A DNA stretch of 64,000 nucleotides, taken from Dactylosporangium aurantiacum (GTDB lineage Bacteria > Actinomycetota > Actinomycetes > Mycobacteriales > Micromonosporaceae). The notes under the pieces were generated by a model, which did not search any database, was not told the origin of the DNA, and saw nothing but the letters and a program-made list of their open reading frames with translations. The stretch is from the NCBI RefSeq assembly GCF_000716715.1, contig NZ_JNYJ01000002.1, positions 1-64,000 of the forward strand, read 5' to 3'. Shown one piece after another: positions 5,200 through 30,725 of the stretch. How positions within the stretch are numbered: position 1 is the first letter of the stretch; the number at the start of each line of letters is the position of its first letter. Position numbers and translations under genes: made by a program.

Positions 5200-7146
5200 T
5201 CAGTCGTCGTCGACGGTGACGCCGTGCAGGGTGGCGAGCTCGGCGAGGCCGTGGTCGTAGCCCTGGCCGACGGCGCGCAGCCGCCAGCGGCCGCCGCGCC
5301 GGTAGACGTGGGCGAGCAGCAGGGTGCGTTCGGTGGTCGCCGCGTCCAGGGTGGCCCGGAGCCGGGGGCTGCCGTCCCCGGTGCGCGCGACGAACTCCAC
5401 CGGGCCGAGGTCGCCGAACGTGCCGGCGCCGGCGAGGGCGGCGGCGATGACGACGCGGCTGACGTCGCCGGGGATCCGGTCGAGCCGGACGTCGACGAGC
5501 GCCTCGTGCGGCACGTCGAGGGTCAGCTCGACGCAGCCGTCGGCGGCGGCGGGCTGGTTGTAGAAGACGAAGTCGGCGTCGGCGCGGACGAGGTCGTCGG
5601 CGTCGGTGAGGAACGCGACGACGTCCACCTCGGCGCCGGTGCCGGTCGGCCAGGTGACCGAGACCGTCCAGTCGTCGACGCCGGCGGGCAGGTCGGTGAC
5701 CGCGCCCCGGGACAGGACCGTCACCGGCACCGGCGCAGTCACCGGCACCGGCGCAGTCACCGGCGCCGGCACCGGCGCGGCGACACCCGCCGCCGACACG
5801 GGCGCGCCGTCGGGAGCCGCGTCGGGAGCCGTTTCCGGAGCCGTTTCCGGGGTCGGTGCCGGGGTCGGGTCCGCGGTCGGGGTCGCGGTCGGGGCGGCGG
5901 CCGTGGGGGCGGGCACTTCGAGCGCCTCGGGGGTGCGCACCGGCAGGCCGAGGGCGGCCACGGTGGCCCAGCGGCGGTCGTCGCCGGCACCGGGGAGCGC
6001 GACGACGTCGGTGACCCGGGCGGTGAGGTTGACCGCCGCGATCCCGCCCAGGCCAGCGATCCGGTCGCGCACCTCGGCGGCCTCGGCGTGGGTGCCGCCG
6101 AGGACCAGCAGGCACCGCCCGGTCAGCGGCCCGGCCGGCACCGCCGCGGCCCGGGCGGCCGCGCGTGGCACCGGCACCACCGGCCCGGCGACCGGCCCGG
6201 CGGCGGGCTTCGAATCCGGCCTGGGGGTGCCGGGCTCGACGTGTTCGAGCAGCGCGGTGAAGGTGGCCTCGTCGACGACGGGGACGGCGTACATGGCGGC
6301 GGCGCGCAGCTTCGAGGTGCCGGCCGCCGGGTCGTTGGTGACCAGCATGCCGGTCCTGGCGCTGACGGTGTTCATCACGTCCAGCCCCGCCGCGGTCGCG
6401 CGGGCCGCGAGCGCGGCGCGGGCCGTGGCGGTGCTGCCGGTGATGGCGACCTTCGTGCCCTGGACGAGGCGCCGGCCCGGGGTCCACCGGCCCGGCCACG
6501 CCCACGGGCACACCGGCCGGGGCAGCCGCGCCGGGTACACCCGGTCGGTGTCGGCGGCGTCGCAGGCGCTCAGCGGCAGCTCGACGGCGAGGGTGTCGGC
6601 GAAGGCGAGGCTGTGGCGCAGGATCTCGGTGAGGACCCGGGTGTCGTCCTCGGCGTCGTGCGGGCGGGCCTGCGTGACACCCCAGTGCGCGGCGAGCGCC
6701 GCGAGGGACAGGCTCGGCGTCGGCAGGTCCAGCCGGCGGCTGAGCGCGACGGTGCACAGCCGGGTGCTGACCGGCAGCGGGTGCGCGGCGCGGTGCGCCT
6801 CCGCGGCGAGGAACTTCCAGTCGAACCCGGCGTTGTGCGCGACGAGGACCCGCCCGTCCAGCAGCTCGGCCAGGTGCGCGACGACCTCGTCGAAGCGGGG
6901 CGCGCCGGACAGCCGCGCGCGGGTGATCCCGTGGACGTGCACCGGCCCCGGGTCGCAGCCGGGGTCGACGAGCGTCGACCAGGTCCGCCCGGGCGTGCCG
7001 TCGGGCTCCAGCTGCGCGACGGCGATCTGCAGCACCCGGTCGCTGGGCGCGTGCAGCCCCGTGGTCTCCACGTCCACGACCGCGTACCGCAGCGGGTACC
7101 GCGTCGAGGCGCTGGCGGGCAGAGGGGTCAGGGCGGCGGACGTCAC
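5200..7146 (-). CDS. DEDDh exonuclease - BRCT - BRCT - TerD fusion protein
   Basis: A 648-residue protein with four domains. Residues ~20-185 are a DEDDh 3'-5' exonuclease of the DNA polymerase III epsilon type: D25-V-E27-T-T-G, then 'HNAGFDWKF', then the H-D-A-E-D-D motif. Two BRCT-like domains follow (~222-300 and ~330-400; 'GTKVAITGST...', 'LTGRCLLVLGG'). A Pro/Ala/Thr linker (~405-470) is built from PVTAPVPVTAPV-type repeats, mirrored by an 18-bp DNA repeat near 5736-5770. The last ~165 residues are a TerD domain with the 'RADADFVFYNQP' and 'RIPGDVSRVVIA' signatures. GTG 7146 has GGAGG upstream. The fusion suggests DNA processing linked to the Ter stress response; the exact role is unknown. 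Confidence 0.85.
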   Translation of the reverse strand: MTSAALTPLPASASTRYPLRYAVVDVETTGLHAPSDRVLQIAVAQLEPDGTPGRTWSTLVDPGCDPGPVHVHGITRARLSGAPRFDEVVAHLAELLDGRVLVAHNAGFDWKFLAAEAHRAAHPLPVSTRLCTVALSRRLDLPTPSLSLAALAAHWGVTQARPHDAEDDTRVLTEILRHSLAFADTLAVELPLSACDAADTDRVYPARLPRPVCPWAWPGRWTPGRRLVQGTKVAITGSTATARAALAARATAAGLDVMNTVSARTGMLVTNDPAAGTSKLRAAAMYAVPVVDEATFTALLEHVEPGTPRPDSKPAAGPVAGPVVPVPRAAARAAAVPAGPLTGRCLLVLGGTHAEAAEVRDRIAGLGGIAAVNLTARVTDVVALPGAGDDRRWATVAALGLPVRTPEALEVPAPTAAAPTATPTADPTPAPTPETAPETAPDAAPDGAPVSAAGVAAPVPAPVTAPVPVTAPVPVTVLSRGAVTDLPAGVDDWTVSVTWPTGTGAEVDVVAFLTDADDLVRADADFVFYNQPAAADGCVELTLDVPHEALVDVRLDRIPGDVSRVVIAAALAGAGTFGDLGPVEFVARTGDGSPRLRATLDAATTERTLLLAHVYRRGGRWRLRAVGQGYDHGLAELATLHGVTVDDD

Positions 7147-11553: not shown

Positions 11554-12357
11554 GTGCGGGGTGTGCACGCGACCGTCACCTGGCTGCGCGACCTGGCTCC
11601 CGGCTGGTTCGCGCTGCTCGCCCTGGCCGAGAACGCGGCGCTGGTCGGGGTGACCGCGCTGCTCGGGCACTGGGTGCTGCGGCTGCCCGGCGCGCACCGG
11701 GTGACCGCGCCGCCGGGCCCGGTCAGCCGGCTGGAGCTGGGTCTGGTCGCGGGCGCGACGGTGCTCAACGCGGCGGTCACCGTGGCCGGCTGGTGGCTGT
11801 GGCGGGCCGGGGCCATCACGCTGACGCTGCCGCTGGACTGGTGGGCGCTGACCGACCTCGCGGTGCTGATCGTGGTCATGGACGTGCTGCTGTACGTGGG
11901 GCACGCCGCCGCGCACGTGCGGTGGCTGTTCCCGTACGCGCACCGGCTGCACCACGTGTTCGCCGACGCCCGGCCGGTCACGCTGTTCGCGCTGCACCCG
12001 GTCGAGGTCCTCGGCTTCGGCGGGGCGTGGCTCGCCGTCCTCGCGGTGCACCCGTTCTCGGTCTGGGCGCTGGGCGCGTACACCGCGGTCAACCTGCTCT
12101 TCGGCATCCTCGGCCACCTGGGGGTGGAGCCGCTGCCGCGGCGGGTGCGCGCCGGCGCCGTGTTCAAGTGGGTGGCCACGCCCGCGATGCACGCCGGGCA
12201 CCACGCGGCGCCGCGGTACAACCTCGGCTTCTACACGACCGTGTGGGACCGGCTGTTCGGCACGCTCGACCCGCACTACGACGCGCGCCGCACCGGCGCC
12301 CTGCCCTTTGCCGACACAACCGCCATCGAAATCCCGACAGCGTCGCCGGCTGGATGA
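11554..12357 (+). CDS. Sterol desaturase / fatty acid hydroxylase superfamily membrane protein
   Basis: 267 residues with four or more membrane segments. The di-iron histidine clusters of the superfamily are visible: 'GHAAAH' near residue 115, 'HRLHH' near 130, and 'HAGHH' near 214. The family oxidises lipids or sterol-like hydrocarbons at the membrane. GTG 11554 is preceded by GGGAGGG at a suitable distance. The substrate cannot be told from sequence. Confidence 0.85.
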   Translation: MRGVHATVTWLRDLAPGWFALLALAENAALVGVTALLGHWVLRLPGAHRVTAPPGPVSRLELGLVAGATVLNAAVTVAGWWLWRAGAITLTLPLDWWALTDLAVLIVVMDVLLYVGHAAAHVRWLFPYAHRLHHVFADARPVTLFALHPVEVLGFGGAWLAVLAVHPFSVWALGAYTAVNLLFGILGHLGVEPLPRRVRAGAVFKWVATPAMHAGHHAAPRYNLGFYTTVWDRLFGTLDPHYDARRTGALPFADTTAIEIPTASPAG

Positions 12358-12422
12358 TCCAGAATGGTGGCTCCACCCCCGGAACGGGACCATCCCCCTG
12401 ACCCGAAAGAAGCGCCACGACC

Positions 12423-12782
12423 ATGCGAGCCACCCGAACCATCATTGCCGCCACGACCATGCTGCTGCTCGGCGCTGGGCTCGCCGGTTGCTCCTCCCAG
12501 GCGGACGACCTGGAGAAGCAGCTGCAGAAGGCCGGCTACACCAACGTGTCCGCCGAGGCCGACTACGACCAGGTCTACAACAAGAAAAAGAAGAAGAACG
12601 AGAAGAAGCTCGACGACTACGAGGCCGAGGCGAAGGCCGGCAACTGCGACGTGGAGATCGAGCAGGACTCCGGCGACGACGACTACGTGATCGAGACCGC
12701 CGCCGGCAAGGACGTCAACTTCACCAACCTCACCGCGTCGGCGCTGGTCGCCGAGCTCGCCAAGCAGGGCATCACCTGCTGA
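12423..12782 (+). CDS. Small secreted lipoprotein, hypothetical
   Basis: 119 residues. The N terminus is a lipoprotein signal peptide with a lipobox L-A-G-C ending at Cys22. The mature part is strongly charged, with a K/E-rich central block (KKKKKNEKK) and acidic patches ('DSGDDD'), and it contains two further cysteines, one of them the last residue. I do not recognise the family. The last 11 bases overlap the 3' end of the convergent rtcB gene. Confidence 0.75.
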   Translation: MRATRTIIAATTMLLLGAGLAGCSSQADDLEKQLQKAGYTNVSAEADYDQVYNKKKKKNEKKLDDYEAEAKAGNCDVEIEQDSGDDDYVIETAAGKDVNFTNLTASALVAELAKQGITC

Positions 12783-28014: not shown

Positions 28015-29622
28015 TTGACGACCGCAGCACTCGCCCGCGGTGCGAACACCACGATCGACGAGACGGCGGTCACGGCGCTCGTCGCCTGGCGCTCCGGCGC
28101 AACGGTCGACGCGTGCGCGCTGCTGGTCGGCGAGGGCGGCAAGGTGCGCGGCGACGCCGACTTCGTGTTCTACAACCAGCCGCAGGACGGCTCCGGCGCG
28201 GTCCGGCTGAGCACCGACGGCGTCGGCGCGGCGACCCTCGCCGTCGACCTGGCCCGGGTCCCGGCCGACGTCAGCAGCGTCGTCGTCGCCGGGTCGATGG
28301 ACACCGGCACGTTCGACGGGGTGCCGGGCCTCGAGGTCACCGTCAAGGGCCGGCGCGGGCAGGTCGTCGCCAGGTTCCCCCTCCGCGACGTGGAGCCGGT
28401 CACCGCGGTGGTGTTCGGCGAGTTCTACCGGCGGCAGGGCCGGTGGAAGTTCCGGGCCATCGGGCAGGGCTGGGACTCGGGCCTGGAGGGCCTGGCCACG
28501 GCCTACGGCGTCACGGTCGAGGCCGACCCGGCCGAGGACGCCGCGGCGCCCGCCGCCACCCCCGCGGTGCGCGCCGACTGGTACGTGGCACCGGACAACC
28601 CGTCGCTGCTGCGCTGGTGGAACGGCACCGAGTGGAGCGTGCAGACGGTGCCGCTCATCCACGACACGCCGACGGTCTGCGGCCGGTGCGGCGGCCCGAA
28701 GTACCGCAGCTACGCCGGTGTGCCGTCCGCCTGCCGCCGGTGCGAGCCGGAGATCGCGAACGTGCTCAACGTGTGGCGGACCCGGGCCGCCAGGGTCCTC
28801 GCCGCCACCGGCACCGCCGAGCCCGCCTGGTCGCAGCTGTGGGCCGAGCTGCGCTACCACCGGGTGCGTGAGGAGGCCGGCCGGGAGGCGCTGCGCCCGG
28901 CCGCCCTGCACCACCTGCACCAGCTGCTGACGTTCGCGTTCGCCGACGGGGTGATCGAGCAGCACGAGATGGACGCCTTCGACGACGCGGTCCGCGCCCT
29001 CGGCGTCGTCGACCCCGCGATCAGCCAGCTGCGCCGCCGGCTGCGGCGCGGCCTGGAGCTGGGCCTGATCAGCGGCGGCGACGTGCCCCGGGCCACCTCC
29101 AGCACCCTGCACCTGGACGCGGACGAGATCCTGCACCTGGACGTGCCCGCGACGCGGGTGCGGCAGCTGGCCAGCGGCACCCGCCGCAACAGCGGCCGGC
29201 TCATCGTCACCAACACCAAGCTGCGCTTCGTCGGCGAGGGTGCCGGCGCCGACCTCGCCTGGTCGAAGGTGATCGAGGCCCGCCCCGAGTACGGCACCGT
29301 GGTCGTCGCCGCCACCACCTCCCGCGGCGGCGGCACCTACGAGGTCGGCGACCCCGAGTACGTGGCCGCCGTCCTCACCGGCGTGCTGAAGGTCGCGAAG
29401 CGGATCGCGACCGTGCCCGGCCAGCGCGACTCCCGCTCGGTGCCGCCGGCGATCCGGGCCGAGGTGTGGCGCCGCGACGGCGGGGCGTGCGTGGAGTGCC
29501 AGGCCACCGAGTACCTGGAGTTCGACCACGTCATCCCGTGGAGCCGCGGCGGCGCGACCAGCGTCGGCAACCTGCAGCTGCTGTGCCGCCGGTGCAACCT
29601 CGCCAAGGGCGCCCGGATCTAG
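28015..29622 (+). CDS. TerD - DUF2510 - zinc ribbon - TerB-like - PH-like - HNH nuclease protein
   Basis: 535 residues from TTG 28015, with GGAGGTG just upstream. Domains in order: TerD (~1-165; 'RGDADFVFYNQP', 'RVPADVSSVVVAG'); a DUF2510-like W-Y..P...L-R-W-W-N-G..W motif (~183-205); a Cys4 ribbon 'CGRCGGP...CRRC' (~222-244); a TerB-like helical segment 'FAFADGVIEQHEMDAF' (~303-345); a GRAM/PH-like segment 'NSGRLIVTNTKLRFVG' (~362-458); and a C-terminal HNH endonuclease with C492-x-x-C495, 'FDHVIPWSRGG' (D504, H505) and C524-x-x-C527. The nuclease motif looks intact. It suggests a Ter-sensing DNA-cleaving or repair factor. The gene overlaps the convergent alkX by 4 nt. Confidence 0.85.
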   Translation: MTTAALARGANTTIDETAVTALVAWRSGATVDACALLVGEGGKVRGDADFVFYNQPQDGSGAVRLSTDGVGAATLAVDLARVPADVSSVVVAGSMDTGTFDGVPGLEVTVKGRRGQVVARFPLRDVEPVTAVVFGEFYRRQGRWKFRAIGQGWDSGLEGLATAYGVTVEADPAEDAAAPAATPAVRADWYVAPDNPSLLRWWNGTEWSVQTVPLIHDTPTVCGRCGGPKYRSYAGVPSACRRCEPEIANVLNVWRTRAARVLAATGTAEPAWSQLWAELRYHRVREEAGREALRPAALHHLHQLLTFAFADGVIEQHEMDAFDDAVRALGVVDPAISQLRRRLRRGLELGLISGGDVPRATSSTLHLDADEILHLDVPATRVRQLASGTRRNSGRLIVTNTKLRFVGEGAGADLAWSKVIEARPEYGTVVVAATTSRGGGTYEVGDPEYVAAVLTGVLKVAKRIATVPGQRDSRSVPPAIRAEVWRRDGGACVECQATEYLEFDHVIPWSRGGATSVGNLQLLCRRCNLAKGARI

Positions 29623-30725
29623 CGCGCCACCTCGAGCCGCAGCCAGGCGGCCAGGCCGGCGATCTCGGCGTCGACCGCGGCGGCCGTCGCCGCGTCGAAC
29701 GGCTCGTCCTCGTGGACGGCGCGCACCCGCAGCACCCCGGCCTTGCGGTCCGCGGCCGCGTCGAGCTTGCCCACCAGGCGGTCGCCGTGCAGGATCGGCA
29801 GCGCGTAGTAGCCCCAGCGGCGGTTCGCGGCCGGCTTGTACATCTCCAGGCCGTAGTCGAAGCCGAACAGCTCCACGGCCCGCTTCCGGTCGTGGATGAG
29901 CCGGTCGAACGGCGACAGCAGCGCCACCCGCCCGTCCAGTGGCTCGCCGAGCCGGCCGAGCTGCTCCGGGTCGACCCGCCAGGTGCCCTTGACCCCGTCG
30001 ACGGTCGCCGGCTCCCCGACGTCGCCGACGCCCCACGGCTCGATCGGCACCTCGGTCGTCTTCGCCCGCGCGATGCCGAGCGCCCGCAGCCGCCGCTCGC
30101 TTCGGCACCGCGGTGCGTCCTGCGCGGGCACCGGCGTCTCGTCCGGGTACACCCGCTCCGCCAGGTCCCACAGCCGGTCCCGCCCCTGCCGCCCGGCGAC
30201 CGCGACCTCCCCGCGGGCCGCCATCAGGTCCAGCAGCCGGATCACGTTCTGGTCGTTGGTCCAGCCGGTCGACGCCCACGGCACCACGCACGTGTCGGGG
30301 ATGACCCGCGACGGCAGTGGCCCCTCCGCGGCGAGCCGGGCGAGGATGTCGCGCCGGCACGCGTCGTTGGCCCGGATCCAGTCCAGGTGCCGCTGGTACT
30401 TCCACGCCCCGGGCGCCTCCTCGCGGCGCAGCGACATCTCCGCCCGGTACAGCGCGATGTCCTCCGCCGGCCGCACCGTCGCCGCCAGCTCGACCAGGTC
30501 CCGCCGCCCCAGCGCACCGGCCAGGTCCGCGGGCTCGTACGCGCCCCCGAGCCGGCTCCACGCCACGAGATCGGCACTCGGCGCGACCGCCGCCGTCGGG
30601 TCGAGCTGCAGCAACGTCAGGTGCCGCACCAGCTCCAGCAGCCCCGCGGGCCGGCCCGCCTCCAGCAGCTGCGCCCGCACCGCGATCCGGCGCGCGTCGG
30701 CAGGGGACAACCGGTGCGTGGTCAT
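29619..30725 (-). CDS. AlkX/YcaQ-family DNA glycosylase (HTH_42, winged helix)
   Basis: 368 residues. Members unhook interstrand crosslinks and remove bulky alkylated purines. The catalytic Q-phi-D motif is visible as Q-L-D in 'LTLLQLDPTAAV' (residue ~40), which points to the AlkX (YcaQ) rather than the AlkZ (Q-phi-Q) subgroup. The conserved C-terminal block 'LLSPFDRLIHDRKRAVELFGF' and 'YYALPILHGDRLVGKLD' is present. The stop overlaps the TerD-HNH stop, and both are DNA-acting proteins. Confidence 0.88.
   Translation of the reverse strand: MTTHRLSPADARRIAVRAQLLEAGRPAGLLELVRHLTLLQLDPTAAVAPSADLVAWSRLGGAYEPADLAGALGRRDLVELAATVRPAEDIALYRAEMSLRREEAPGAWKYQRHLDWIRANDACRRDILARLAAEGPLPSRVIPDTCVVPWASTGWTNDQNVIRLLDLMAARGEVAVAGRQGRDRLWDLAERVYPDETPVPAQDAPRCRSERRLRALGIARAKTTEVPIEPWGVGDVGEPATVDGVKGTWRVDPEQLGRLGEPLDGRVALLSPFDRLIHDRKRAVELFGFDYGLEMYKPAANRRWGYYALPILHGDRLVGKLDAAADRKAGVLRVRAVHEDEPFDAATAAAVDAEIAGLAAWLRLEVAR

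Follow-up and report, generated by a model that had tools for sequence, protein, structure and literature searches.

The HNH-TerD fusion protein of Dactylosporangium aurantiacum is probably a multi-module DNA endonuclease that works as an effector of a Ter stress or defence pathway. Its gene lies at positions 28015..29622 (+) of the window, by which we mean the whole stretch of 64,000 nucleotides analysed, and homologues and coding composition support a frame of 535 aa with a TTG start, the stop being included in these coordinates. The protein has recognisable domains, a conserved active site and modules that keep constant company, and a homologue in Deinococcus radiophilus has a ter-cluster context. 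In the proposed mechanism the TerD domain would read a Ter signal, either a ligand or a Ter partner, and would then release or position the HNH nuclease. The DUF2510, zinc ribbon, helical and PH-like modules would dock the protein on DNA, a partner or the membrane, and the C-terminal HNH with its zinc-stabilised HNN site would nick or cut DNA, be it damaged own DNA or invading DNA. The regulation of HNH by TerD, like the nature of the signal and target, is something we infer.

Domain architecture

Pfam and structure models place the modules in the order TerD, DUF2510, zinc ribbon, helical segment, PH-like domain and HNH, and so confirm the six-module chain proposed by a sequence-only reading of this DNA, with the qualification that the TerB likeness of the helical segment is weak. 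All modules are on the forward strand. The TerD domain (28027..28506, residues 5-164) scores above the Pfam cut-off for PF02342 and has a TerD fold, and it lacks the Asp-rich loop (GDNxTGxGxGDDE) seen in ordinary TerDs. DUF2510 (28579..28653, residues 189-213) is assigned by Pfam, which does not recognise it in the two Deinococcus homologues. The zinc ribbon of CxxC...CxxC type (28678..28743) has C222, C225, C240 and C243 invariant in 35/35 aligned rows. A five-helix segment seen in structure models (28744..29073, residues 244-353) carries a weak TerB-like motif; with the TerB model (PF05099, cut-off 24.4 bits) the window protein scores 13.7 bits, the D. radiodurans homologue 22.6 and that of D. 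radiophilus 16.7, and fold comparison of the segment gave no clear match. The PH-like domain (29095..29409, residues 361-465) has a PH fold. The HNH domain of HNN type (29446..29619, residues 478-535) is assigned by Pfam (PF01844, 49.8 bits against a cut-off of 21.4), by conservation and by alignment with the solved structure 4h9d. When the middle block (residues 216-475) served as query, with scoring of a candidate list limited in number and protein length, HNH was present in all 43 listed matches and TerD in 41, the two matches without TerD being 324 and 338 aa long.

The HNH active site

The catalytic positions are D504, H505, N519 and N528, and zinc would be held by C492, C495, C524 and C527. 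Across the 35 rows of a first alignment (the window protein and 34 of 120 listed homologues, from 1859 found) D504, N519, N528, K531, R534 and the zinc cysteines show no variation, and H505 is kept in 34, homologue P0021 having Leu there. The HNH domain was matched in 35/35 homologues scanned. A second alignment of 83 rows (the window protein and 82 of 128 listed proteins; some fragments and near copies omitted) likewise has invariant HNH residues, with H505 at 90% or more. In 20 C-terminal stretches taken from genomes there is no change at the D, H, N, N and K positions or at the four cysteines, and hardly any at the last Arg. The widespread loss of these residues that might have spoken against the earlier proposal of an intact nuclease was thus not found in either alignment or in the genome stretches. 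Gene neighbourhoods were studied in the best 80 of 232 loci, retrieved with patterns from the HNH stretch, and a 71-row set was made of 70 of these loci and the window protein by an HNH-end filter; HNH conservation within those loci and rows is circular, because the retrieval patterns and the filter used the HNH itself.

The nearest solved HNH by sequence is 4h9d, a modest match (E 4e-4) in whose ungapped alignment D53, H54, N68 and N77 fall on D504, H505, N519 and N528, and the second zinc Cys pair falls on C524 and C527; the first CxxC is displaced by three residues. In the part of the source available (PMC3765158) this protein is a weak Mn-dependent nickase with a preference for AP-site DNA. 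It seems quite improbable that HNH-TerD is instead a structural or nucleic-acid-binding protein, in which the HNH fold would be a zinc-bound binding module that does no cutting. The Asn at the third catalytic position, the several binding modules of the protein and the Leu of P0021 at H505 would suit such a role, but in both alignments (35 and 83 rows) D504, N519, N528, K531, R534 and the zinc cysteines are invariant, which argues against it, as does the nicking, weak as it is, reported in that same portion of the source for 4h9d, itself an HNN protein.

Distribution and gene neighbourhood

Among the 120 listed homologues the genera are Dactylosporangium, Virgisporangium, Frankia and relatives, and Nocardia. 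The C-terminal part was found in 6/200 genomes of the own family and in 23/394 genomes of the class, a patchiness that counts against its being a core part of the Ter machinery. Two plasmid records hold a homologue, one from D. radiodurans (39.7%) and one from D. radiophilus (36.2%). In the own genome the fusion occurs twice, the other copy starting at position 71323 of the same contig and 68% identical in its C-terminal part. This copy (L017:7323-8918, equal to G000:C2:71323-72918) is 43 kb from the first, which brings the number of TerD-nuclease genes in a stretch of about 68 kb on this contig to three.

No ter cluster around the gene was seen within the window. The neighbours tested there encode a protein that matches DUF218 below threshold, an AlkZ-like DNA glycosylase and a large carboxylase. 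Elsewhere in the own genome DUF475/TerC and plain TerD genes are on one contig (C11) and another plain TerD is on a second (C63). The AlkZ-like gene (29619-30725, -) is convergent with the HNH-TerD gene, the two overlapping tail to tail by 4 bases, and this arrangement invites a DNA-repair reading, in which the HNH would cut abasic or damaged sites, the TerD and PH modules would recruit the protein under oxidative or metal stress, and the convergent glycosylase would make the abasic sites. Such a nickase would be either a choice of target for the Ter effector or a function independent of Ter. The AP-site preference attributed to 4h9d in the part of its source available and the homologues in radiation-resistant Deinococcus are consistent with repair, but the 4h9d match is modest and the AlkZ neighbour recurs in just 1/80 loci (the best 80 of 232), that of D. 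siamense, so that we regard repair as somewhat unlikely.

The effector role in a Ter pathway that we prefer draws on two other neighbourhoods. On plasmid pRadio2 of D. radiophilus (L126) a homologue without DUF2510 opens a cluster of TerD-, TerF- and TerC-like genes, annotated in the order HNH-TerD, TerD (78 bases on), TerD-vWA, TerD, TerD and DUF475/TerC, and divergent from HNH-TerD are genes annotated as ATP-grasp, phosphoribosyltransferase, HAD, AIM24, StiP and aldolase. For six of the eleven neighbours Pfam bears the annotation out (ATPgrasp_Ter, PRTase_2/TRSP, StiP, one TerD, TerD-vWA and DUF475/TerC). This ter-cluster context was seen in the one genome of D. radiophilus, and the genes surrounding the D. 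radiodurans homologue (L125) form no such cluster. At the latter locus (L125:8323-9954) a small gene with no Pfam match lies directly 3' of the homologue.

In Nocardia the neighbour is a TerD-vWA protein, whose motif is present at 41/80 loci (best 80 of 232), all of them Nocardia (41/68), is absent from the flanks of all 12 non-Nocardia loci among the 80, and is found within an open reading frame at 38 loci. Confined as it is to one genus, this association is probably the product of one inherited event. Two membrane-like proteins of about 97 aa with an NPxPEAP motif occur near HNH-TerD and TerD-vWA at 49/80 loci (best 80 of 232), for example at L091:11746-12039 and 12224-12532 and also at L053, L124 and others; none of four such proteins scanned was over a Pfam cut-off. 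The earlier suggestion of a Ter-linked nuclease thus gains from the D. radiophilus cluster and from TerD-vWA in Nocardia, while the joint pathway with the exonuclease fusion that went with it is not general, and the description of the pathway as dispersed rather than in one operon holds for the window but not for D. radiophilus.

The TerD domain

Phylogenetic analysis of 32 TerD domains, of which 18 come from this genome, 6 from other HNH fusions and 8 from other exonuclease fusions, recovers an HNH clade with support 97/90 and an exonuclease clade with support 100/100. A branch supported at 96/98 has the HNH, exonuclease, vWA, C33 and C7 fusions on one side; on the opposite side are ordinary TerDs, the AIM24 fusion and fusions of two further types. 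Since the latter side holds fusions too, the branch does not simply part effector TerDs from ordinary ones. The DADFVFYNQP core earlier said to be shared by the TerDs of the HNH and exonuclease fusions occurs in 4/18 TerDs of the genome. That the two clades are sisters is neither supported nor rejected (p-AU 0.40).

The GDNxTGxGxGDDE loop, which we take to be the calcium site of ordinary TerDs, is found in none of the 71 HNH-fusion rows (3 of which are without the TerD part), and by strict pattern in 5/18 TerDs of the own genome, a sixth missing it by a changed letter. With this loop absent, calcium control of HNH-TerD seems doubtful on sequence grounds, and switching by a ligand or a partner looks more likely than switching by calcium. 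In the parts of the sources available, Klebsiella TerD binds calcium (as cited in PMC8123226) and TerD is named as a possible recogniser of specialised nucleotide derivatives (PMC7159879).

This genome joins TerD to HNH (twice), to DEDDh (once), to vWA and possibly to a nuclease of PD-(D/E)XK type. It is a tentative idea, and one we hold at rather less than even chances, that a single TerD subgroup serves as a general sensor plug for effectors that act on DNA and that in some lineages the HNH form was built into the ter cluster. The possible PD-(D/E)XK case is a 756-aa TerD fusion outside the window on contig C7 (L021:1643-3910), in whose C-terminal half a motif resembling PD-(D/E)XK was noticed by eye, with no family or structure match; it may be a third nuclease class on TerD.

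The exonuclease-TerD fusion

A fusion of DEDDh exonuclease, BRCT and a C-terminal TerD (5200..7146, -; 648 aa) lies 21 kb from HNH-TerD. Its exonuclease-BRCT part scores 368 bits against NF004719 (cut-off 389), and the PADLOC phage-defence candidate model PDC-S48 matches it at 5e-69, the best stretch being the exonuclease part. This match bears on an anti-phage or anti-plasmid reading, in which HNH-TerD would be a restriction-type nuclease regulated by the Ter modules. The patchy distribution with a paralogue, the PADLOC type II REase models that match the HNH stretch at 5e-7 and a TerD-dependent anti-phage system mentioned in the portion of a HEPN paper available (PMC3710099) are consistent with that reading. 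Against it, the HNH fusion has no system-specific protein match in PADLOC-DB 2.0.0, where what matches is the REase_II models on the HNH stretch, and we think it unlikely.

Whether the two fusions travel together was followed in 28 HNH-positive genomes, being all those from the own-family and class surveys (some with fragments only, such as G075 and G298), and in 65 controls, of which 56 were chosen by handle number, while 5 came from the same genus and 4 from the same family. With the exonuclease-TerD query at E<=1e-45, part of the first-look candidates being scored per genome, matches were found in 12/28 HNH-fusion genomes and 12/65 others (p = 0.02). Exonuclease and TerD are in one frame in 5/28 (G000, G044, G024, G055 and G481) and 3/65 respectively (p = 0.051); counting the TerD remnant in frame in G439 as well would bring this comparison to p = 0.02. 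The HNH-positive matches left uncounted, besides G439, are G075 (TerD part only) and G271 (stops), and those without TerD in frame are G526, G340, G497 and G552. Inspection of 8 of the 12 matching controls (9/14 places) gave TerD in frame in G316, G514 and G238 and not in G568, G466, G490, G202 and G370, and the frames of 238-405 aa in G256, G310, G502 and G550 were taken as too short.

An obligate pair of the two fusions is refuted, as the query has no match in the HNH-fusion genomes G237 and G430, each one contig; nor has it one in G309 and G558, each two contigs. The co-occurrence expected earlier holds inside the own family, where the one-frame fusion is in 4/6 HNH-fusion genomes against 0/9 others (p = 0.011, the genomes being related and relatedness ignored), but not outside it (1/22 against 3/56, p = 1). 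What remains, as judged from sequence, is an apparent association inside the own family. G044 carries both fusion genes on the same contig, about 16 kb from each other.

Relation to known systems

The Ter-dependent stress systems of Anantharaman, Iyer and Aravind (2012), as cited in PMC8115787, share with the present family the TerD modules and, next to the D. radiophilus homologue, genes of TerF-like, TerC-like and biosynthetic kinds. They differ in that here one chain combines an HNH nuclease with a zinc ribbon, a helical segment and a PH-like module, and the window gene is without a visible ter cluster. Gmet_0936, the HNH endonuclease of 4h9d (PMC3765158), aligns in its D/H/N/N residues and second zinc Cys pair and also has the first CxxC, offset by three residues, but is a 112-residue chain without TerD or PH modules. 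The TerF-like TerD-vWA proteins (PF10138) also have an N-terminal TerD fused to another domain, and share its side of the tree with the HNH fusion, but with vWA in place of the nuclease. The exonuclease fusion of the window is an actinobacterial DEDDh-BRCT exonuclease (NF004719/PDC-S48) plus TerD, and differs from the HNH fusion in nuclease class, in having TerD at its C-terminus and in lacking a general tie to it. The HNH stretch also aligns with the HNH domains of IscB and McrA. The IscB model (NF040563) scored 39.5 bits, over the HNH stretch only, where 175 would be required, so that membership of this family was rejected, and the Pfam scan had no RuvC family.

Many homologues are already named "TerD family protein" in source records, and the idea that Ter systems possibly touch DNA processing is already in print (PMC8115787, in the part available). 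The texts covered by our literature search, in the parts available and with the main 2012 ter survey outside its reach, gave nothing pointing to an HNH-TerD architecture.

Implications

The cellular role of the Ter pathway is an old open question. With a nuclease joined to TerD, and being the first gene of one Deinococcus ter cluster, the idea that Ter acts on DNA becomes testable on one protein, and the presence of the HNH-TerD form in D. radiodurans as well, where genetics is available, makes such a test practical. Should one TerD subgroup indeed be a sensor plug, with the HNH form built into the ter cluster in some lineages, the Ter pathway would have DNA cleavage as a direct output.
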